Shown one piece after another: positions 38,934 to 50,894 of a stretch of DNA of 59,191 nt. Position numbers and translations under genes: made by a program. Source of the stretch: Actinomycetota bacterium (GTDB taxonomy: Bacteria; Actinomycetota; Acidimicrobiia; Spongiisociales; UBA11373); assembly GCA_020444505.1 (NCBI GenBank), contig JAHLKU010000012.1, forward strand, positions 1 to 59,191, written 5' to 3'. The number at the start of each line of letters is the position of its first letter. The first letter of the stretch is position 1. The notes beneath the pieces were generated by a model. The model worked only from the letters and a program-made list of their open reading frames with translations, was not told where the DNA came from and searched no databases.

Positions 38934-40511
38934 ATGTTCACGCGCTCCACCAGAGTGGGCAGGCCGCGCTCCGGGCGGCCCCGCTCCCGACGGACCCGGC
39001 TGGCCGCCATCGCGCTCGGCTCGGGTGTGGTCATGGTGCTGGTGTTCGCCCTGGTGTTCTCGATCGCCTTCGGCACCCGCAAGGTCTCCGCCCATGCCGA
39101 GGCGCTCCACAGCGCCGACGAGGCGCTCCGCGCCGCCACCGTCGCCCGCGCCCAGGCCGGGATGGCCGCCCACCTGATCATCCTCCAGGAGGGTTTCGGC
39201 TTCGACGCGGCCGAGGGCATCGACATCGCCCTCGGCGAGGCCAACACCGCCGTTTTCGACCTCCAGGCCAGCCTCGACGAGTTGGACGGACAGACCGGCG
39301 GGCTCGACGGGAGGCTCGCCGCCGCCGCCGCCGACTTCTCGGACTCCGTCGCCGGTATCACCACCGCCGTGGTCGGCGCCGACGTGGACGCCGCCGAGGC
39401 CTACGGCGCCTCCCTCGACGAGGCCTTCCGGGTGCTCACCGGGGCGGTGGTGGTGGAGCGCGACTATCAGGCGTCGCAGGTGGCGGCCGCCAACCAGACC
39501 ATGGGCCGGGTCGGCGACCTGGTGCGCTTCCTGGTGGCGTTCCTGGTGCCGACCGCCGTGATCCTGCTGTACCGGGAGCTGTCGCAGCGCCAGCAGCGCC
39601 AGTCGGAACTGGAGGTGCGCCTGAGGTCCGAGCAGGAGCTGGGGAAGGCCAGGGACGAGTTCGTCGCCAACGCCAGCCACGAGCTGCGCACGCCGCTCAC
39701 CGCCGTCTTCGGCCTCGCCCACATCCTGGAGGAGGACCCGGAGGTGGCGGCTTCGGAGACCGCGTCCGAGATGGTCGGCATGATCATCAGCGAGACCCAC
39801 GACCTGTCCCGCATGGTGGACGACCTGCTCACCACGGCCCGCCTCGACGCCGGGGCCCTCCATTTCCAGTTCGAGGACATCGGGGTGCTGGAAGAGGTGC
39901 GGGAGGTGGTGGACCCCATGGCGAGAGCCGGCACCGAACTGGGGGTGGACGTGCACCCCGCCGTGGTGCGGGCGGACCGGCTGCGGCTGCGCCAGGTGAT
40001 CCGCAACCTGCTCTCCAACGCGGCCAAGTACGGCGGTGCCGACATCCGGCTCATCGGCCGGGTGGAATCCGGCTGGTACGAACTGGTCGTCGCCGACGAC
40101 GGCGAGGGCGTCCCCACCGAGATCGAGAGCCGCCTGTTCCAGCGCTTCCTGCACCACGGCGACGTGCCGCTGGTACTGGGGAGTGTGGGCCTGGGACTGT
40201 CGATCGTCCAGGCCCTCGCCGAAGGCATGGGCGGAGCGGTCTGGTACGAGCGTGACGGCGGCTGGACCAAGTTCGTGGTGCGGGTGCCGCTGGCGAAGGC
40301 CCGCTCCGAGAGCCGGTTCCGCGAGGCCGATCTGACGCGCTCCCGCGCCCGCCTGCAGAGCCCGGGTGGTGTGGAGGACCCCGTCGCGGCGGTTCCCGCA
40401 GGCGCCGCACCCGAGCCGCCTCCGATCCCCGCCCTGAGCGGCGCCGACGCCGGCCTCGGGGCCTTCGCCGCGGCGGAGCAACTCCGCCGTCTGGGTGCCC
40501 GCAAGCGGTGA
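38934..40511 (+). CDS. Membrane sensor histidine kinase, orphan
   Basis: 525 aa. TM1 at about 22-46, outer sensor region 48-190 (all-alpha, CHASE3-like), TM2 about 196-214, coiled linker, HisKA with phosphorylated His249 in NASHELRTPLT, and HATPase: RQVIRNLLSNAAKYGG (N box), VVADDGEGVP (G1), VGLGLSIVQALAEGMGG (G2). The tail from about 470 is Ala/Pro-rich. No response regulator lies in the window. Downstream is the giant surface protein; sensing linked to that surface structure is possible but unproven. Confidence 0.92.
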   Translation: MFTRSTRVGRPRSGRPRSRRTRLAAIALGSGVVMVLVFALVFSIAFGTRKVSAHAEALHSADEALRAATVARAQAGMAAHLIILQEGFGFDAAEGIDIALGEANTAVFDLQASLDELDGQTGGLDGRLAAAAADFSDSVAGITTAVVGADVDAAEAYGASLDEAFRVLTGAVVVERDYQASQVAAANQTMGRVGDLVRFLVAFLVPTAVILLYRELSQRQQRQSELEVRLRSEQELGKARDEFVANASHELRTPLTAVFGLAHILEEDPEVAASETASEMVGMIISETHDLSRMVDDLLTTARLDAGALHFQFEDIGVLEEVREVVDPMARAGTELGVDVHPAVVRADRLRLRQVIRNLLSNAAKYGGADIRLIGRVESGWYELVVADDGEGVPTEIESRLFQRFLHHGDVPLVLGSVGLGLSIVQALAEGMGGAVWYERDGGWTKFVVRVPLAKARSESRFREADLTRSRARLQSPGGVEDPVAAVPAGAAPEPPPIPALSGADAGLGAFAAAEQLRRLGARKR

Positions 40512-40740: not shown

Positions 40741-43700
40741 ATGGGTGCAGCGGGGAACCGGCCGTTCGAGCAGTATCGCCGCGGCGTCGCCGCGCGCCGA
40801 CGCCGCCACTCCCGGCCGGGCCGCCTGCTCGCCGCGGCCGCGGGGTTGCTGGTGGCCGCCGGGGTCGTGATGGCGCCGTTCCTGATGCGGGCCTCGGAGG
40901 CCCTGTCCGTGCCGGACGCCGTCATGCTGTTCTCGACCAGGGACGACGTCGGGTCGAGCGGCATCCCCGGCCTCGCTTCCTGGAACGACGGCTCGGTGCT
41001 CATGTTCGGGGAGCCGGGGGCGCAGTGGGACCCGCCGCTCACCGCGGGCACGTTCGGCCTCGGCACCGACCTGGAGACGCTCGGCGCCGACGACGTCGCA
41101 GGGGTGCACCTGGTCACCAGGACGGTCACGGTGGGGTCGGCGCCGTCGGTGGCCCTGCAGCCCGGCGACCTTCTGTTCTCGCTCGACGGCGACCGCACGC
41201 TGACCAGCCTCACCACCGTCACGGTCCAGCGCAACGACGTGGTGCTGCTGCGCCCGGCCACCCCCGGCGACTACACATCGGGGACCCTGTCGGTGCTGCT
41301 GGACGATCCGCTCGGCGCCGAACTGCGCGGCCTCACCCTGGTCGAGGTGGGGACCACGGTCGGCGACGTCCCGCTGGCTGCGGGGGAGTTCCTCCTCGCC
41401 CGCGCCGGCGGGTCCGAGGACGAGGACGTGTACCGCTACGTCCCGACGGGGACCGGGGAGGGGACGACGTCCGGAGCCTGGTCGGTGCTCCTGACGGGCG
41501 AGGAGATGGGCATCCAGGCGCAACTCCACGGTCTCGACCTGATCGAGGAGGGTTCCGGGGGGTCCCTGACCGCCGGTTCGCTGGTCGTGACCCTCGACGC
41601 ATCCGACTCGATCGGGTCCGGCGACGTGCTGCCGGTGCAGGCCTCCGACGTGGCCGTGCTCCACGTCACCGGGTCCGGGCCGGCCACCACCACCGCCGAC
41701 CTGCTGTTCGACGGCTCCGACGTCGGCATCTCGAACGCGCTCGACGCGGTGTACGTCGACGGCAACCACCCGCCGTCGCTCGACCAGGACCACGGGGACC
41801 GCACCGACGCCGAAGGAGCCGCCGTCTCGCTGGCCAACCCTGCGACCGACCTGGACGGCGACCCGCTCACCTGGTCGGCCACCGGCCTGCCGCCGGGCCT
41901 GTCGATCGACCCCGGCAGCGGCCTCGTGTCGGGGACGATCCCGTACACGGCGTCCGGGGGGTCGCCGTACACGGTGGAGATCCGGGTCGAGGACCCCGCC
42001 GGAGCCGCCGACACCGACGCGTTCACCTGGGCGGTCACCGACGTCAACGGCGTGCCATCCGTCGACGACCCCGGCGCGCAGTCGGGAGCGGAGGGCGATG
42101 TCGTGTCGGTGGTGGTGGCCGCCACCGATCCCGACGGCGACGGCCTCACCTGGTCTGCGATTGGCCTGCCCGACGGCCTCGGGATCGACCCGGCATCGGG
42201 TGAGGTCTCCGGCACCATCGGCTACGACGCGGCTGCGGGCTCGCCGTTCACCGTCGAGGTGACCGCCACGGACGACGGATCGCCTCCCGCCGCCGGGTCC
42301 GTCACCTTCTCCTGGTCGGTGGCAGACACCAACCGCCCGCCGTCCTTCGGGTACGACCTCTCCGATCGAGTCGACGTGGAGGGCGGCGTGGTGTGGCTGC
42401 CGACGCCGGCGTCCGATCCCGATGGGGACTCCCTGACCTGGTCGGCCGCGGGCCTGCCCCCCGGTCTGGTGATCGACCCGGGCACCGGCGTGATCTCCGG
42501 CACGGTCGCTGCCGGCTCCTCGGCGGGGTCGCCCTACCCGGCGGAAGTGCGCGTCGAGGACCCGGCCGGCCTGTTCGTCACCGATGCCTTCTCCTGGTCG
42601 GTGCTCGAGGGCGTGGTCACCTTCCAGCAGGGGACGGACGGGTACACCGGGAACGAGGACACCCTGGTCTACGAGGGCGCCCCCACCACGGCGTACGGCG
42701 CCGAGGACTACGTCCGGGTGGACGCCGACTGGGTGACACCCGGCGGCGGCGCCACCCAGGGGTTGATCCGCTTCGGAGGGTTGGTGGGCACCGGCCCCGG
42801 GCAGATCCCCCCCGGCTCCACCATCGGGGCGGCCACGCTCCAGGTGTTCGTGACCAACACCAGCCCCGGGGAGGTGGCCCTCCACCGGGTCCTGGCCCCG
42901 TGGAGCGAGGCGTCCACCTGGAACTCGCTCGGGGCCGGCATCCAGGCCGACGGCGCCGAGGGCGCCGTCGCTGCCGATGCGGTGTTCATCGACACGTCCA
43001 CCCCGGGGCAGGTGTCGATCACCGGCCTCGCCGCCTCCGTCCAGGCGTGGGCCGACGGCTCGATCAACCGCGGCTGGGTGCTGTACCCGAGCAGCCCCAC
43101 CGGGTGGCAGTTCAGTTCCTCGGAGTACGTCACCGTGTCGCAGCGCCCCCGGCTGGTCGTGTCGTTCACCCCCAACGCGGCCCCGGTGTTCGGCCAGGAC
43201 CTCGGCGACCGCACCGACCCGGAGGGCACGACGGTGAACCTGTCGGCGGCGGCGTCCGATCCCGAGGGCCACGCCGTCGTCTACGCGGCAACCGGCCTGC
43301 CGGACGGCCTGGCCATCGACACCGGGACGGGACTGATCACCGGGACCATCACCTTCGACGCTGCGGCCGGGTCGCCGCTGGCGGTGCAGATCACCGCCAC
43401 CGACGAGTACGGCGCAGCGTCCACCGACACGTTCACCTGGACGGTGCAGGACCTCAACCGACCGCCCTCGGTGGCGAACCCGGGCGACCGCTCCAACACC
43501 GAGGGCGATCCGGTCACGTTCGCGGTCGGCGGCTCCGACCCCGACGGCGACACGCTCACCTGGACGGCCACCGGCCTGCCCGACGGCCTCTCGATCGATC
43601 CCGGCACCGGAGTCGTGTCGGGCACCCTGTCCTACGCCTCCCAGGGCGTTCACGCGGTGACGGTGCGCGCCACCGACGACGGCGCCCCCGGGTTGTGGGA

Positions 43701-46700
43701 CGAGGTCGCGTTCACGTGGGACGTCGAGAACGTGAACCGTGCCCCGGTGGTGGCCGACCCCGGCGCGCAATCGGTCTCGGAGGGCGCCGCCGTCTCCCTC
43801 GTCGTCACCGCCGTTGATCCCGACGGCGACGGGATCACCTGGTCGGCGGCCGGCCTGCCGGACGGCCTGTCGATCGACCCATCGACCGGGGAGGTCTCGG
43901 GCACGGTCGGCTTCGACGCCTCGCCGTCGTCGCCGTTCACGTCCACCATCACCGCCACCGACGACGGGTCGCCTGCGCAGGCCGGGGCCGTCGTGGTCCC
44001 GTGGACGGTCGCCGACACCAACCGGCCCCCGGTGGTGGCCGCCCCGGGCGACCGGACCGACGTCGAAGGCGACCTCGTGGTGCTGCCGATCACCGGCTCC
44101 GACCCCGATGGTGACGCCATCGCCTGGTCGGCGAGCGGTCTGCCGGACGGCCTGTCGATCGACCCGGACTCGGGCACGATCTCGGGGGTCCTCACCTTCG
44201 ATGCCGCCGCCGGGTCCCCCTACGGCGTGATCGTGACCGCCACCGACGCCGGCACTCCGGTGCAGTCCTCCGACGTCTCCTTCACCTGGACCGTGGACGA
44301 CGCCAACCGGCCGCCCGCCGTCACCTCGCCGGGCGATCAGGCCGACGACGAGGGTGCGGTCGTCTCGCTCGCGATGGCCGGCTCCGATCCCGACGGCGAC
44401 GGTCTCACGTGGTCGGCGGCCGGCCTGCCGCCCGGCCTGTCCATCGACCCGGCCACCGGGCAGATCTCGGGGACGATCACGTACGAGGGCGCCGGCCTCT
44501 ACCCGGTCACCGTGCGCGCCACCGACGACGGCGCCGGCAACCTCTACGACGAGGAGACGTTCACCTGGGACGTGGCCGACGTCAACCGGCCGCCGGCGGT
44601 CTCCGATCCCGGAGCGCAGATCACCGCCGAGGGTGAGATGGTGGTGCTGGCGGTGTCCGCTACCGACCCCGACGGTGACGGACTCGGCTGGTCCGCCGCC
44701 GGCCTTCCCCCGGGGCTGGCGATCGACCCCGTGACGGGCCAGATCACCGGTGACATCACGTACGACGCTTCGGTGGGATCCCCCTACACGGTGACCGTCA
44801 CCGCAGCCGACGACGGGACCCCGGCCCAGGCCGGTCAGGTGGTCTTCGCCTGGACCGTGACCGACGTGAACCTCGCCCCATCGGTCGCCGACCCCGGCCC
44901 GCAAGTGTCCAGCACCGGCGAGGCCGTGACCCTGGCGCTCACGGCCGTCGACCCGGAGGGCGGCACGATCACCTGGTCGGCGACCGGCCTGCCCGACGGG
45001 CTCTCCATCGACCCCGTCACCGGCGTCGTCTCCGGCACCGTGACCGCCCCGTTCGGCTCGGTCTTCACCGCCGAGGTGTCGGCCACCGACGACGGGACGC
45101 CCCCCGCCAGCGGCACGGTGGGGTTCACCTGGGCGGTCGCCGGCGACCTGGACGTCTCCAAGGTGTCGGATGCCGGCGGCGCGGCGGCGATGGGCCAGAC
45201 GATCACCTACACCGTCACCGTCGACAACCCCGGTCCCGCGGCGCACACCGGCGTGGTGGTGGCCGACCCGCTCCCGGCGGGGACCACCTGGGTCTCGACG
45301 GAGGTGACGGCACCCGTCGACGGAGCGACCGGCACCCTCGGGGACGGTTGGGAGACCCAGGACTACAGCGGATCGACCGGGACCATCCCGTGGCTCGGTC
45401 CGTGGGTGGAGACCAACGACGACGGGTCGCCGGGCGGCGGCAAGATCCACCTGCACCGCCACGACGGGGTGTGGCTCATCGAACTGGAACAGGGCGAGAA
45501 GTGGATCACCCGTACCGCCGACCTGTCGGGATACTCCGCAGCGACGCTGTCGTATCGGTTCCGGCGTCACGACCTCAAGGACGCCGGCGACATCGTGGTG
45601 GTGGAGGTGTCGGGGGACGGTTCGTCGTGGACCGAGGTCGCCCGCCACGTCGGGCCGGGCAACGACGTCTGGCAGGTCAGGGCGCCCATCGACATCTCCG
45701 AGCACCTCTCGGCGACGACCTCCATCCGGTTCCGGTCACTGGCGTCCCACGACGGGGGCGAACTGCGGGTGGATTGGGTCGAGATCACGGCCGACGAACG
45801 GGTGCCCGCCGCGGCGCCCGGAGGCGCTCCGCCGACGCTCGCCTCCGGGCTCACGCTGCTGCCGGGGGAGTCGATGACGGCCACCGTCGTCGTGGCGGTG
45901 GACGACCCGCTGGATCGATCGATCCTGTCCATCGAGAACACGGCCACGGTGACGAGCGACCAGCAGGTCACCGACGAAGCGTCGTCCACCTCGGATGCGG
46001 TGAACCACGAGCCGCGGTTCGACCTGGAACGCACCGATCGCACCGATGCGGAGGGCGCGGCGATCTCCCTCGACAACCCGGCGACCGATCCCAACGGCGG
46101 CCCCCTCACCTGGTCGGCGAGCGGCCTGCCGTACGGCCTGTCGATCGACCCGGCGACCGGTGAGATCACGGGGACGATCTCCTACGACGCTGCGGCGGGC
46201 TCGCCCTTCGCCACCGTGGTGACGGTGACCGACGACGGCAGCCCGGCCCTGGAGGATCAGGTGGCGTTCACCTGGACCGTCACCGAGACCAACCGGGCGC
46301 CGATCGTCGACCCGATCCCCGACCGGGCATCCGACGAGGGCGCGACGGTCCTCGTCGTGCCCGTGGGCAGCGACCCCGACGGCCACGGCCTGACCTGGTC
46401 GGCGGCCGGCCTTCCCCCGGGCGTGTCGGTCGACCCGGTCTCCGGCGCGGTCGCGGGCACGATCGGCTTCGACGCGGCGGAGGCATCGCCGTACGAGGTG
46501 ACCGTGCGGGCCACCGACGACGGGACGCCGGTGCTGTGGGCCGAGGCCGCCTTCACCTGGGACGTGGCCGACGTCAACCGCCCGCCGTCGATCACCCCGC
46601 CCGGCGACCGCTCCTCGGCCGAGGGAGCAGCCGTCTCCTGGGTGCTCGAGGCGTCCGACCCCGACCCCGACACGCTCACCTGGTCGGCAGCCGGCCTGCC

Positions 46701-48645
46701 CCCGGGCGTGTCGATCGACCCGGCGACCGGGGCGATCTCCGGGACGATCACCTTCGACGCCTCGCCGGGGTCCCCGTACACGGTGACGGTGGCGGTGACC
46801 GACGACCGGGAGCCGGTCCTGACCGATCAGGCCGTGTTCACCTGGACGGTCGCCGACACCAACCGGGCTCCGATCGTCGACGAGATCGGCGACCGTTCCG
46901 ACGACGAGGGGGCGGTGGTGGTGGCGTCGGCCGCGGCCACCGACCCCGACGGCGACGCCCTCACCTGGTCGGCCACCGGGCTGCCGCCGGGAGTCTCCAT
47001 CGCCCCCTCCGGTGGGGCGATCACCGGTGTGGCGGGCACACCCGGCGTGTTCGCCGTCACCATCACCGCCACCGACGACGGCTCGCCGAACCTGGGCGCC
47101 TCGGTCGGGTTCACGTGGACGGTCGTGGCCGCCCAGCCGGAGGCGCCGGTGGTGGAGCCGCTCGACGATCGGGAGGGCCTCGTCGGCGACGAGGTCGACT
47201 TCCAGGCCGCCGCCTCCTCGCCCGACGGTGAGGTGCTCACCTGGTCGGCGTCGGGCTTGCCCGACGGCATCTCGGTGGAGGAGGCGACGGGGCAGGTGCA
47301 GGGGACCCTGGAGGCCGCAGGCGTCTTCGATGTCGAGGTCACGGTCTCCGACGGCCGCGGCCTCACCGGGTCGGCCGGGTTCACCTGGACGGTGGGCGAG
47401 GGCCTCCTCGTGGACGAGCCCCCGCGCGCCGCGGACGACGTCGTCACGGCCTCCGTCGGGGACCTCGACGGCGGCCGCCTCGTGATCGAGGTGACCGGCA
47501 ACGACATCGACCCGGAGGGTGGGGCCTTGCGGGTGGTGTGGGCCGGCCGGCCGGACGCGGGCACGGTCGAGATCGTCGATGCGGGCGCGGTGGGGTTCAC
47601 CCCGCCGTCCGGCTGGAGCGGGACCGCCACGTTCTCGTACCGGGTGGCCGACGAGCCCGGCAACACGGCCACCGCCGACGTGACGGTGACGCTCCGGCCC
47701 GACCTGCTGGCCGGCGGCGGAGGGAGCGCCCTGCTGTGGTCGCCGCCCGAGGAGGCCCGCCCGACGGCGGTGCTCGGCACCGTGCGGCCTGCGGAGGCGC
47801 AGCTCGTGGTCGGGAGCATCGTGCAATCCCTCCACGTGCTGCGGATGCCGCTGGCACTGCTCGGCGGCGCCGTGATCTGGTCGCTGCTGCTGGGAGGGGC
47901 CCTCAACCTGACGGTGCTGCTCCGGGGAGGCCTGCCGTTCATCGCGAGGAGGGCGACCATCCCGATGGCGGTGGTGCTGGCCGGCCATGGGCAGAAGGTC
48001 CCGGCCCACGCCGAGCCCGGCGGAGGAGAGGTGATCCACCGCTTCCTGGCCACCGACGACGGGATCGCCGGCACCGGCAAGGTCGTCGAGGTGGACGGTG
48101 TCGAGTGGGCGCAGGTGGAGACTCCTGCCGGACGCGGCTGGGTGGAGGCGGTGCACCTCACCGAGGACCTGGACCGGGAGACGTTCGCCGACGACCGGCG
48201 TCCGGTGGCCCTGCTGGAGGAACTGGTGGGCACGCTGCGGGACGGCGGGCCCCTCGACGGGTTGGTGTCCCGCCATGGGCTGTGGGTGTCGCACCACGGG
48301 GCACCCGTCCACTTCCCGCCTGAGCGTCTGACGGGCCTCTGCCGGTCGCCGCAGACGGCGCTCTGGGCAGGCCGCCACGGTGCCGACCCCGATGTGCGCG
48401 GCACGTTCGCCGAGGTGGTGGCGGCCGGGATCGTGGCGGCCTGGGACCGGCCGGGGAGGCTGCTGACGACGGACCGGACCTCGATGCCGTCCACCGTGGT
48501 CCCCGTGGAGTACACCAACCTGCACGCCGTCTCCATCGGCGCCGACCTCACCGGCAGGGCCCGGCTCGACCAGGTGGCCTGGATGCTGCACTTCTCCTAC
48601 GAGGACGGCCGTCCCCGCGTGATCGCGATCACCAAGGAGGGCTGA
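40741..48645 (+). CDS. Giant cell-surface protein with 15 Ig-like repeats and predicted cytoplasmic tail
   Basis: 2,634 aa from ATG 40741 (no strong ribosome site; an ATG at 40603 and a GTG near 40660 are in frame). Layout: basic N-terminus and TM (about 28-50); about 290 residues of short beta repeats (55-345); He_PIG-type Ig repeats 1-3 (347-622); DNRLRE-like domain (626-811); repeats 4-10 (815-1466); DUF11 domain split by an inserted domain (1470-1755); repeats 11-15 (1759-2219); a cadherin/Big_9-like domain (2224-2320); TM (2369-2395); SH3-like domain (2406-2480) and a further unknown domain to 2634. Arg-rich flanks of both TMs predict repeats outside and the C-terminus inside. Likely adhesin or sensor. 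Confidence 0.88.
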   Translation: MGAAGNRPFEQYRRGVAARRRRHSRPGRLLAAAAGLLVAAGVVMAPFLMRASEALSVPDAVMLFSTRDDVGSSGIPGLASWNDGSVLMFGEPGAQWDPPLTAGTFGLGTDLETLGADDVAGVHLVTRTVTVGSAPSVALQPGDLLFSLDGDRTLTSLTTVTVQRNDVVLLRPATPGDYTSGTLSVLLDDPLGAELRGLTLVEVGTTVGDVPLAAGEFLLARAGGSEDEDVYRYVPTGTGEGTTSGAWSVLLTGEEMGIQAQLHGLDLIEEGSGGSLTAGSLVVTLDASDSIGSGDVLPVQASDVAVLHVTGSGPATTTADLLFDGSDVGISNALDAVYVDGNHPPSLDQDHGDRTDAEGAAVSLANPATDLDGDPLTWSATGLPPGLSIDPGSGLVSGTIPYTASGGSPYTVEIRVEDPAGAADTDAFTWAVTDVNGVPSVDDPGAQSGAEGDVVSVVVAATDPDGDGLTWSAIGLPDGLGIDPASGEVSGTIGYDAAAGSPFTVEVTATDDGSPPAAGSVTFSWSVADTNRPPSFGYDLSDRVDVEGGVVWLPTPASDPDGDSLTWSAAGLPPGLVIDPGTGVISGTVAAGSSAGSPYPAEVRVEDPAGLFVTDAFSWSVLEGVVTFQQGTDGYTGNEDTLVYEGAPTTAYGAEDYVRVDADWVTPGGGATQGLIRFGGLVGTGPGQIPPGSTIGAATLQVFVTNTSPGEVALHRVLAPWSEASTWNSLGAGIQADGAEGAVAADAVFIDTSTPGQVSITGLAASVQAWADGSINRGWVLYPSSPTGWQFSSSEYVTVSQRPRLVVSFTPNAAPVFGQDLGDRTDPEGTTVNLSAAASDPEGHAVVYAATGLPDGLAIDTGTGLITGTITFDAAAGSPLAVQITATDEYGAASTDTFTWTVQDLNRPPSVANPGDRSNTEGDPVTFAVGGSDPDGDTLTWTATGLPDGLSIDPGTGVVSGTLSYASQGVHAVTVRATDDGAPGLWDEVAFTWDVENVNRAPVVADPGAQSVSEGAAVSLVVTAVDPDGDGITWSAAGLPDGLSIDPSTGEVSGTVGFDASPSSPFTSTITATDDGSPAQAGAVVVPWTVADTNRPPVVAAPGDRTDVEGDLVVLPITGSDPDGDAIAWSASGLPDGLSIDPDSGTISGVLTFDAAAGSPYGVIVTATDAGTPVQSSDVSFTWTVDDANRPPAVTSPGDQADDEGAVVSLAMAGSDPDGDGLTWSAAGLPPGLSIDPATGQISGTITYEGAGLYPVTVRATDDGAGNLYDEETFTWDVADVNRPPAVSDPGAQITAEGEMVVLAVSATDPDGDGLGWSAAGLPPGLAIDPVTGQITGDITYDASVGSPYTVTVTAADDGTPAQAGQVVFAWTVTDVNLAPSVADPGPQVSSTGEAVTLALTAVDPEGGTITWSATGLPDGLSIDPVTGVVSGTVTAPFGSVFTAEVSATDDGTPPASGTVGFTWAVAGDLDVSKVSDAGGAAAMGQTITYTVTVDNPGPAAHTGVVVADPLPAGTTWVSTEVTAPVDGATGTLGDGWETQDYSGSTGTIPWLGPWVETNDDGSPGGGKIHLHRHDGVWLIELEQGEKWITRTADLSGYSAATLSYRFRRHDLKDAGDIVVVEVSGDGSSWTEVARHVGPGNDVWQVRAPIDISEHLSATTSIRFRSLASHDGGELRVDWVEITADERVPAAAPGGAPPTLASGLTLLPGESMTATVVVAVDDPLDRSILSIENTATVTSDQQVTDEASSTSDAVNHEPRFDLERTDRTDAEGAAISLDNPATDPNGGPLTWSASGLPYGLSIDPATGEITGTISYDAAAGSPFATVVTVTDDGSPALEDQVAFTWTVTETNRAPIVDPIPDRASDEGATVLVVPVGSDPDGHGLTWSAAGLPPGVSVDPVSGAVAGTIGFDAAEASPYEVTVRATDDGTPVLWAEAAFTWDVADVNRPPSITPPGDRSSAEGAAVSWVLEASDPDPDTLTWSAAGLPPGVSIDPATGAISGTITFDASPGSPYTVTVAVTDDREPVLTDQAVFTWTVADTNRAPIVDEIGDRSDDEGAVVVASAAATDPDGDALTWSATGLPPGVSIAPSGGAITGVAGTPGVFAVTITATDDGSPNLGASVGFTWTVVAAQPEAPVVEPLDDREGLVGDEVDFQAAASSPDGEVLTWSASGLPDGISVEEATGQVQGTLEAAGVFDVEVTVSDGRGLTGSAGFTWTVGEGLLVDEPPRAADDVVTASVGDLDGGRLVIEVTGNDIDPEGGALRVVWAGRPDAGTVEIVDAGAVGFTPPSGWSGTATFSYRVADEPGNTATADVTVTLRPDLLAGGGGSALLWSPPEEARPTAVLGTVRPAEAQLVVGSIVQSLHVLRMPLALLGGAVIWSLLLGGALNLTVLLRGGLPFIARRATIPMAVVLAGHGQKVPAHAEPGGGEVIHRFLATDDGIAGTGKVVEVDGVEWAQVETPAGRGWVEAVHLTEDLDRETFADDRRPVALLEELVGTLRDGGPLDGLVSRHGLWVSHHGAPVHFPPERLTGLCRSPQTALWAGRHGADPDVRGTFAEVVAAGIVAAWDRPGRLLTTDRTSMPSTVVPVEYTNLHAVSIGADLTGRARLDQVAWMLHFSYEDGRPRVIAITKEG
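41776..47396 (+). repeat. Fifteen tandem He_PIG Ig-like repeats
   Basis: Units of about 85-92 residues (about 260-276 bp) with the core DPDGDxLTWSAxGLPxGLSIDPxTGxxSGTI and ending in FTWxVxD. At DNA level the word CACCTGGTCGG recurs once per unit. Blocks 1-3, 4-10 and 11-15 are separated by the DNRLRE-like and DUF11 regions. The last two units have drifted furthest (units 14 and 15 lack parts of the SIDP box). Confidence 0.9.
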
Positions 48646-48670: not shown

Positions 48671-49264
48671 ATGGAAGCCACCGTCGCCCTCGTCCTCGCC
48701 GCCGGCGCCTCGCGCCGGCTCGGCCGCGCCAAGCAGTTGATCGACTGGCACGGGGTGCCGCTGCTGCAGCGGGTCGTCGAGGCCGCCGCAGCGTGGCCGG
48801 TGGAAGCCGTCACCGTCGTGCTCGGCGCTCACGAGGAGGAGATCCTCGGGGCGGTGGAGTTCGGCGACGCGATCGTGGTGGTCAACCCGGAGTGGGAGGA
48901 GGGGATCGCCTCGTCGCTGCGGGTGGGGCTCGATGCGATCGGGCGCGACTCGCACCTGCGCCGGGCGTTCGTGGTGCTCGCCGACCAGCCCTTCATCCCC
49001 GCCGACGTCCCCCCGGGCCTGCTCGACGGCATGGACCGCTCCGGCAAGCCGGCGGTGGTGCCCAAGTACCGCTACCAGCGCGGCAACCCGGTGCTGGTGG
49101 ACCGTTTCCTCTGGCCCCGGCTGATGAGCCTCGAGGGCGACGCCGGCGCCGCCCGGCTGCTGCAGGCGCACCCCGAGTGGGTGCACGAGGTGCGGTTCGA
49201 CCACCCGGCGCCCCGGGACATCGACACGGAGCAGGATCTGGGCGATCTGCTGGGAGGCAGGTAG
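48671..49264 (+). CDS. MobA/MocA-like nucleotidyltransferase
   Basis: 197 aa. ALVLAAGASRRLGRAKQLIDWHG is the NTP-transferase P-loop with its Lys; then VVNPEWEEGIASSLRVGL, VVLADQPFIPADVP (metal Asp) and KYRYQRGNPVLVDRFLWPRL. This is the MobA-like NTP_transf_3 group that includes MocA (CTP to molybdopterin). Molybdenum genes are not adjacent, so the cofactor is an inference. Confidence 0.87.
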   Translation: MEATVALVLAAGASRRLGRAKQLIDWHGVPLLQRVVEAAAAWPVEAVTVVLGAHEEEILGAVEFGDAIVVVNPEWEEGIASSLRVGLDAIGRDSHLRRAFVVLADQPFIPADVPPGLLDGMDRSGKPAVVPKYRYQRGNPVLVDRFLWPRLMSLEGDAGAARLLQAHPEWVHEVRFDHPAPRDIDTEQDLGDLLGGR

Positions 49265-49360
49265 CCGGCCGCCGCCCCCTGGCGAGGCCTCGGGCACGTC
49301 CGGTATGCTGCTGCGCCATCGGGCCACGGGTGGCCGGCCGCTGCGAATCGAGAGGACGCG

Positions 49361-49765
49361 ATGGGATCGATCGACACCATCGAGGGGATCGGCGTCAAGA
49401 ACGCCACGAGGCTCCGCAAGCACCGCATCCGCACCACCGAGGCGCTGTTGAAGAAGGGCGCCACCCGCGCCGGCCGCCGCGCCATCGCCGCCGCCACCGG
49501 CCTCACCACCACCCAGATCCTCGAGTGGGTGAACCGCGCCGACCTGATGCGGGTGAAGGGCATCGGTGAGGAGTACTCCGATCTGCTCGAGGCCGCAGGG
49601 GTGGACACCGTCAAGGAGCTCCGCAACCGCAACCCCGAGAACCTGCTGGCCAAGATGACCGAGCTCAACCGGCGCAAGCGCCTGGTGCGGCGCCTGCCGA
49701 CCCTCCCCATGGTGGAGCGCTGGGTGGCCCACGCCGCCGCACTGGACCCGATGGTCAGTCACTGA
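49361..49765 (+). CDS. DUF4332 helix-hairpin-helix protein
   Basis: 134 aa. Two helix-hairpin-helix-like units: DTIEGIGVKNATRLRKHRIRTTEALL and LMRVKGIGEEYSDLLEAAGVDTVKEL, then NPENLLAKMTELNRRKRLVRRLP. Fits DUF4332, a small predicted nucleic-acid-binding family. GAGAGGA ribosome site; TATGCT (49304-49309) probably its -10 box. No DNA-repair partner adjacent. Confidence 0.85.
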   Translation: MGSIDTIEGIGVKNATRLRKHRIRTTEALLKKGATRAGRRAIAAATGLTTTQILEWVNRADLMRVKGIGEEYSDLLEAAGVDTVKELRNRNPENLLAKMTELNRRKRLVRRLPTLPMVERWVAHAAALDPMVSH

Positions 49766-49832
49766 GGCCGTACCGGCCCCTGGGAGCGGCCGCCGGGGTA
49801 CTAACGTCTCCTCCGCACCCTCTTGGAGCCCC

Positions 49833-50894
49833 ATGCCCCCGCTGGATCACGCGACCCCGAAAGGCGACGACTCCTTGCTGATCGTCCTTCGCCCCGACGC
49901 CACCGACCAGGACATCGACCACATCGTCGGGCGCCTGCGGGAGATCGGCGCCGACGCCCACGTCTCGCGGGGCAAGACCAGGACGATCATCGGAGCCGTC
50001 GGCGACCGCATCCGGATCCAGCAGCTGCCGTGGGAGGCGTTCCCCGGGGTGGACCGCACGGTGCCGGTGCTCAAGCCGTTCAAGTTCGTCAGCCGTGAGT
50101 TCCAGGCCGCCGACTCGGTGGTGGACGTCGGCGGGGTGGAGGTCGGCGGCGGCCACGTCACCGTGATCGCCGGGCCGTGCGCCGTCGAGGACCGGGAGCA
50201 GTTGTTCTCCGCGGCCTCTGCGGTGAAGAAGGCCGGCGCCGCCATCCTGCGGGGCGACGCCTTCAAGCCGAGGACGTCCCCCTACTCGTTCCAGGGCCTG
50301 GAGGAGCGGGGCCTCGAACTGCTCGCCGAGGCCCGCGAGGAGTTCGAGATGCCGTTCGTGGCCGAGGTGCTCGACCCTCGCCGGGTGACCCTGGTGTCGG
50401 AGTACGCCGACATGATCCGCATCGGCGCCCGCAACATGGCCAACTTCACCCTGCTCGCCGAGGTGGGGCGCCAGGACAAGCCGGTGCTGCTGAAACGGGG
50501 CATGAGCGCCACCATCGAGGAGTGGCTGCACGCCGCCGAGTACGTCTACAAGGAGGGCAACCATCAGGTGGTCCTCTGTGAGCGCGGTATCCGCACCTTC
50601 GAGGACCAGACCCGCAACACGCTGGACATCGCCGCCGTGCCGGTGCTGCACCGCCTCAGCCACCTGCCGGTGGTGGTGGACCCGTCCCACAGCGGCGGGC
50701 GCCGCGACCTGGTGGCGCCGCTCACCAGGGCCGCGGTGGCGGTGGGCGCCGACGGCGTGCTCATCGACGTCCACCCGGCGCCGGAGACGGCGCTCGTGGA
50801 CGGTGCGCAGGCCATCCTTCCGCACGAATTCGAGGGCCTGATGGATCAGGTGCGGGCCCTCGCCGCCGCACTCGGGCGCGACGTGATCGGCTAG
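49833..50894 (+). CDS. aroF: 3-deoxy-7-phosphoheptulonate (DAHP) synthase, AroF type with ferredoxin-like domain
   Basis: 353 aa. First step of the shikimate pathway: phosphoenolpyruvate plus erythrose 4-phosphate. The N-terminal ferredoxin-like regulatory domain (about 1-85: [25 protein letters not shown]) is followed by the (beta/alpha)8 barrel with [38 protein letters not shown] and [13 protein letters not shown]. This is the type I-beta (AroQ/Thermotoga-like) class, in which the N-terminal domain mediates tyrosine feedback in relatives. TAACGT -10 at 49802-49807, TTGGAG ribosome site. Confidence 0.96.

Follow-up and report, generated by a model that had tools for sequence, protein, structure and literature searches.

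Histidine kinases that work with an accessory envelope protein are a known kind of bacterial signalling unit. In the actinobacterial three-component system MtrA-MtrB-LpqB, LpqB modulates MtrB, and this envelope partner is encoded adjacent to the kinase (PMC3353115); in mycobacteria the MtrB activator TapA is reported to bind MtrB, probably via the TM/HAMP region, and to be needed for phosphorylation of the response regulator (PMC12338722). RsgI-type anti-sigma sensors are single-pass proteins with a variable ectodomain and a conserved cytoplasmic part, and a membrane protease cuts them within the TM helix (PMC12203970). He_PIG/cadherin-like bacterial surface proteins carry ectodomain repeats (Pfam He_PIG). 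Bacterial adhesins are usually viewed as stalks with a passive role, fixed to the cell wall or a membrane.

Here we describe a giant repeat protein whose gene lies directly 3' of a sensor histidine kinase gene in a stretch of 59,191 nucleotides from an Actinomycetota bacterium (Acidimicrobiia); this whole stretch is referred to as the window. As with LpqB, the gene of the envelope partner directly follows that of the kinase. Unlike LpqB, however, the giant spans the membrane, is no lipoprotein (there is no Cys, and hence no lipobox Cys, in its first 60 residues) and shows no GerMN domain in a Pfam scan; its kinase is not MtrB (86 bits against NCBIfam NF040691, cut-off 450), and its SH3b and NTF2-like module is predicted to lie across the membrane, on the other side. 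With TapA, which is reported to bind through the TM/HAMP region, the giant would share the action of a membrane protein on a kinase, but an Ig stalk is not known in TapA. The single pass, the variable ectodomain and the conserved cytoplasmic part recall RsgI, but the orientation is opposite and the partner is a kinase instead of a sigma factor; we found no match to an anti-sigma domain in the giant and no sigma factor gene among the six genes scanned in the window. The repeats are those of He_PIG/cadherin-like proteins, from which the giant differs by its C-terminus, a TM helix with a conserved cytoplasmic two-domain tail, and by its conserved unit with a kinase gene. This architecture is unusual and had no match in the literature searched, where we also found no description of the kinase-giant unit.

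The giant is encoded in a single frame, which is stop-free 5' of the ATG as far as GTG 40495 (Table 1). A preliminary description made from the sequence alone had recorded two membrane segments with Arg-rich flanks, Ig repeats between them and a tail of about 240 residues, and all of these statements hold. TM1 has a Kyte-Doolittle value of 2.25; RGGLPFIARRAT comes after TM2 (about residues 2366-2394, Kyte-Doolittle 1.9), from which 240 residues remain to the C-terminus. He_PIG (PF05345) matches with E 4e-173 and 562.9 bits (cut-off 24), 15 stretches exceeding the cut-off individually, and at the DNA level 15 copies of a unit of ~285 nt are found. The N-terminal 290 residues of the ectodomain (40888-41766) are without Pfam match (best E 0.1) and are common to the giant at locus L036. 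A different conserved domain (YRDEF...SGSDG...W) stands at the start of other giants and of several short partners of kinases.

Table 1. Features of the kinase-giant unit in the window, and loci of related giants with a cold-shock domain (CSD) tail
Feature	Position or locus	Strand	Basis
Sensor histidine kinase, partner gene	38934..40511	+	Pfam HisKA + HATPase_c; conserved pairing
Giant single-pass repeat protein, 2634 aa	40741..48645	+	ORF, Pfam
TM1 / signal segment, residues 29-47, after RRRRHSRPGR	40825..40881	+	Hydropathy
Ectodomain, He_PIG Ig repeats	41764..47415	+	Pfam, DNA repeat units
DNRLRE domain, inserted among He_PIG repeats	42655-43161	+	Pfam
DUF11 domain, inserted among He_PIG repeats	45145-45363	+	Pfam
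Big_9 / tandem-95 type Ig domain, membrane-proximal	47416..47691	+	Pfam
Continuous juxtamembrane + TM2 helix, residues 2351-2395	47791..47925	+	AlphaFold2 (pLDDT 50-60 here), hydropathy
Basic post-TM linker, GGLPFIARRAT after R2395	47926..47958	+	Basic in 31/35 homologues
SH3b-like domain, predicted cytoplasmic	47959..48165	+	Homologue Pfam match, tail profile, AlphaFold2, Foldseek
NTF2-like domain, predicted cytoplasmic	48175..48639	+	AlphaFold2, Foldseek
Ig giants with single TM + CSD tail, directly behind kinase	L217, L219, L222, L223, L227, L262-L270, L274		

The kinase consists of TM1, a sensor of ~145 aa, TM2, a short linker, HisKA and HATPase_c; Pfam finds no HAMP domain in it. It had been named as a possible partner of the giant, and its homologues strongly support this. 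Kinase homologues adjoin giants with the tail of the window protein (class A, see below) both in the window's family and in further families of the host order. Across this order, homologues of at least 300 bits were present in ~35 genomes. Of 37 unique loci of these kinases that could be tested, 36 have immediately downstream, in the same orientation, a gene for a giant that is exported and carries an N-terminal TM (34 loci by an automatic rule, plus L182 and L197 by reading the start of the giant; L048 and L206 are one locus, and three loci whose fetched stretch contains no downstream sequence were excluded). The sole true exception, L200, has no giant. Giants behind kinases mostly run off the contig; most relatives are represented by MAGs, whose assemblies break inside the repeats, and the tail is often absent from the same contig. 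Kinase, giant and tail are intact on one contig in the window and at L035, L036, L048 and L049. Over 138 genomes, the presence of a kinase (at least 300 bits) and of a class A tail is distributed 28/4/7/99, with agreement in 28 + 99 genomes; the corresponding Fisher p of 1e-18 is indicative only, since the genomes share ancestry and the value overstates their independence. The ectodomains behind the kinases comprise Ig, YCF48/BNR repeats, beta-helix, PKD and DUF7948. Across the kinases mean identity is 54% in TM2, 56-58% in the linker, 64% in HisKA and 33% in the sensor; the ratio of TM2 to HisKA identity, compared with control sets (0.85 and 0.70 vs 0.59), points in the expected direction but is a weak signal, as the MtrB-like set is not cleanly segmented. 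A stand-alone CheY-like receiver without output domain lies directly upstream of the kinase at L048, L176, L180, L183, L193 and L227; no receiver gene is found beside the window kinase. Judged from sequence, layout and partnership argue strongly that window kinase and giant form a conserved two-gene unit.

No Pfam or NCBIfam family names the tail of the giant. An AlphaFold2 model with seven sequences in its alignment (overall pLDDT 81, >90 over most of the tail) predicts a continuous helix, an SH3-like barrel and an alpha+beta domain. The SH3-like domain of the preliminary description is backed by this model, by a homologous tail (SH3_3, PF08239, in L008: 31.7 bits, 1.8e-7) and by the tail profile, which matches PDB sequences in the SH3 part only (Abl SH3 at 6e-4), but in the window protein taken alone it stays below threshold (12.6 bits, E 0.16; cut-off 27). 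Searching the PDB with the model, Foldseek returned the SH3b structures 2krs and 4krt with probability 1.0 but E 0.02. Nearly all top matches were NTF2-like structures (best E 1e-3, probability 1.0; TM-score to target of the best matches 0.49-0.60), which suggests an NTF2-like fold for the domain left unnamed before; no Pfam family matches this domain. On the model, we read the tail as SH3b plus NTF2-like, the latter part by fold similarity alone.

With a loose cut-off the tail profile matches in 73 of the 138 genomes of the host order, some matches covering the SH3 part only. All 50 strong matches in a class-wide sample of 395 genomes fall in the host order, a phylum sample added one further full-length tail, this one in a lipoprotein whose contig bears the title Nitriliruptorales, and a profile search of genome contigs with the family-level tail alignment gave 6 loci. 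The tail family is almost wholly restricted to one order, Acidimicrobiia relatives. It comprises two classes. Class A tails (n=35) have a hydrophobic segment just before the SH3, a conserved helix-like stretch ahead of it and basic residues behind it; mean K+R is 1.2 before and 3.9 after the TM. Their ectodomains vary (Ig, YCF48/BNR, beta-helix, PKD), while the TM/tail block and the kinase stay. A tail of this kind behind a TM in other genomes, with varied repeats in front, had been named as support to look for, and the class A proteins provide it. Class B tails (n=23) are without the hydrophobic segment and belong to proteins with a lipobox-like signal at the start, either GerMN + SH3_3 + tail or short lipoproteins, the tail being the C-terminus. 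Many of these lipoproteins adjoin an MtrB-like kinase, one of which reaches 240 bits against NF040691, and they sit at the place of LpqB, after a receiver gene and the kinase. Such MtrA-MtrB-LpqB-like operons are found at L043:3271-6999 and likewise at L037, L044, L102, L104, L107 and L108, with a GerMN + SH3 + NTF2-like lipoprotein in the LpqB position. In K+R content, class A tails exceed class B tails about twofold (0.089 vs 0.048). In a tree of 60 tails (37 class A, two of them added later, and 23 class B) one branch, present in all bootstraps, parts the two classes with support 100/99. At L004:1866-2420 a broken partial second tail copy lies right behind an intact one, possibly the remnant of a tandem duplication.

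Weaker paralogues of the kinase (25 loci, 216-295 bits) were used as a control set for the pairing. They are no clean negative control, since behind many of them, too, lies the gene of an exported protein with a TM near its C-terminus. Five of these proteins have a cold-shock domain after the TM at the C-terminus (Pfam CSD over cut-off in four), and a TM + CSD profile recovered 19 proteins, well apart from ordinary cold-shock proteins, which match the CSD columns only. Of the 19, 15 are Ig-repeat giants whose gene directly follows that of a histidine kinase; in the four remaining cases the kinase is not in the fetched stretch or no stretch was fetched. In a phylum sample this profile gave just one weak match of 102 residues, which lies outside the host order. 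A kinase tree computed with a quick method and no bootstrap (99% SH-aLRT) places all direct partners of SH3 tails in one clade and 15/15 CSD partners in the other; on these sequences, kinase clade tracks tail type. The CSD clade contains one SH3-labelled row, L050, whose kinase gene comes after that of an SH3 giant in the order giant - receiver - receiver - kinase (G025:C248); this kinase most likely belongs to the next unit, so that SH3-type and CSD-type units probably stand side by side here.

Starting from this architecture, the conserved pairing and the tracking of kinase clade by tail class, we infer a signalling role for the giant, and with it a ligand, mechanosensing, direct contact and a direction of the signal. 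We consider it rather probable that kinase and giant form a dedicated kinase/co-receptor pair, of which the giant, with its tail in the cytoplasm, is the large subunit exposed at the surface. TM1 would export the giant or anchor its N-terminus, the Ig-repeat stalk would extend far from the cell, and a single helix would recross the membrane, with the SH3b and NTF2-like tail in the cytoplasm beside the HisKA/HATPase part of the kinase. Most likely the stalk would capture a surface, a polymer or a neighbouring cell, and occupancy, clustering or tension could be passed via the juxtamembrane/TM helix and the tail to TM2, linker and HisKA of the kinase; in several relatives the stand-alone receiver is the likely phospho-acceptor. 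Since kinase and juxtamembrane-TM-tail block are conserved and the stalk is variable, we would most simply take the stalk for an interchangeable input and the TM/tail block for the coupling part, which would meet the kinase in and under the membrane. A sensing role is plausible, and the giant may be an adhesion sensor or mechanosensor as suggested before; the gene pair may also be co-regulated without contact between kinase and giant.

The prediction of repeats outside, one pass and a cytoplasmic tail was already part of the preliminary description, which named an extracellular tail in other proteins as evidence against it. Such tails do exist: homologous tails form the C-terminus of the 23 exported class B proteins, and the fold can therefore exist outside the cell. 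SH3b domains usually act on cell walls, and the tail of the giant might be extracellular as well, with a re-entrant or non-spanning TM2 and an SH3b that binds peptidoglycan. We regard this as highly improbable. A hydrophobic segment precedes the tail in 35/35 class A proteins and in none of the lipoproteins, the flank behind it is the more basic one in 31/35, as expected from the positive-inside rule, and the higher K+R of class A points the same way. Cold-shock domains are cytoplasmic nucleic-acid binders, and their occurrence at the same post-TM place in sister giants gives independent support for a cytoplasmic tail. The exported tails form a separate sister clade and do not overturn the prediction for class A.

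Even with a cytoplasmic tail, the giant could be no more than an adhesin or stalk at the surface; the kinase would then merely control its expression, and the tail would anchor or stabilise the protein or act as stop-transfer domain. Genes of kinases and regulators often lie next to their targets, and the lack of a receiver gene beside the window kinase fits this as well, but we think it unlikely: the kinase clade goes with the cytoplasmic tail class and not with the ectodomain, TM2 and linker of the kinase are conserved, and an SH3/NTF2-like or cold-shock domain would be superfluous for a mere anchor. Alternatively the tail could be the output, freed by regulated intramembrane proteolysis as in RsgI or Notch, with the kinase as parallel or upstream regulator. 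Cleavage in the TM helix by a membrane protease has a precedent in RsgI (PMC12203970), and cold-shock tails, as nucleic-acid-binding folds, would be plausible released effectors; in the SH3/NTF2-like tail, however, there is no recognised DNA- or RNA-binding domain and no sign of a cleavage site was seen, and the kinase pairing would be left unexplained, which makes release of the tail a quite doubtful explanation.

If the co-receptor reading is true, bacteria would have their own version of adhesion receptors in a conserved unit of a stalk of several thousand residues, a TM helix, a cytoplasmic tail and a dedicated kinase; thanks to the kinase/giant pairing, two genes suffice to test this idea directly. 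The related units with a cold-shock (RNA/DNA-binding) instead of an SH3/NTF2-like tail suggest a new type of kinase co-receptor. More tentatively, one might envisage a modular family of bacterial surface receptors that have a histidine kinase of their own. Huge, variable ectodomains (Ig, propeller, beta-helix) would be joined by a single helix to interchangeable SH3b/NTF2-like or CSD tails, and contact outside would act on the kinase and, in the CSD class, perhaps also on RNA/DNA at the membrane. Downstream of the giant (48671-50894) the window contains genes for a MobA-like NTP transferase, a small protein and a DAHP-synthase-like protein; the NTP-transferase and DAHP-synthase-like genes adjoin the giant in no family but its own and were rejected as partners. 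At L123/L125 (G493:C109) we observed a tandem order giant - kinase - giant, in which the frame of the second giant stays open for 6476 residues or more.
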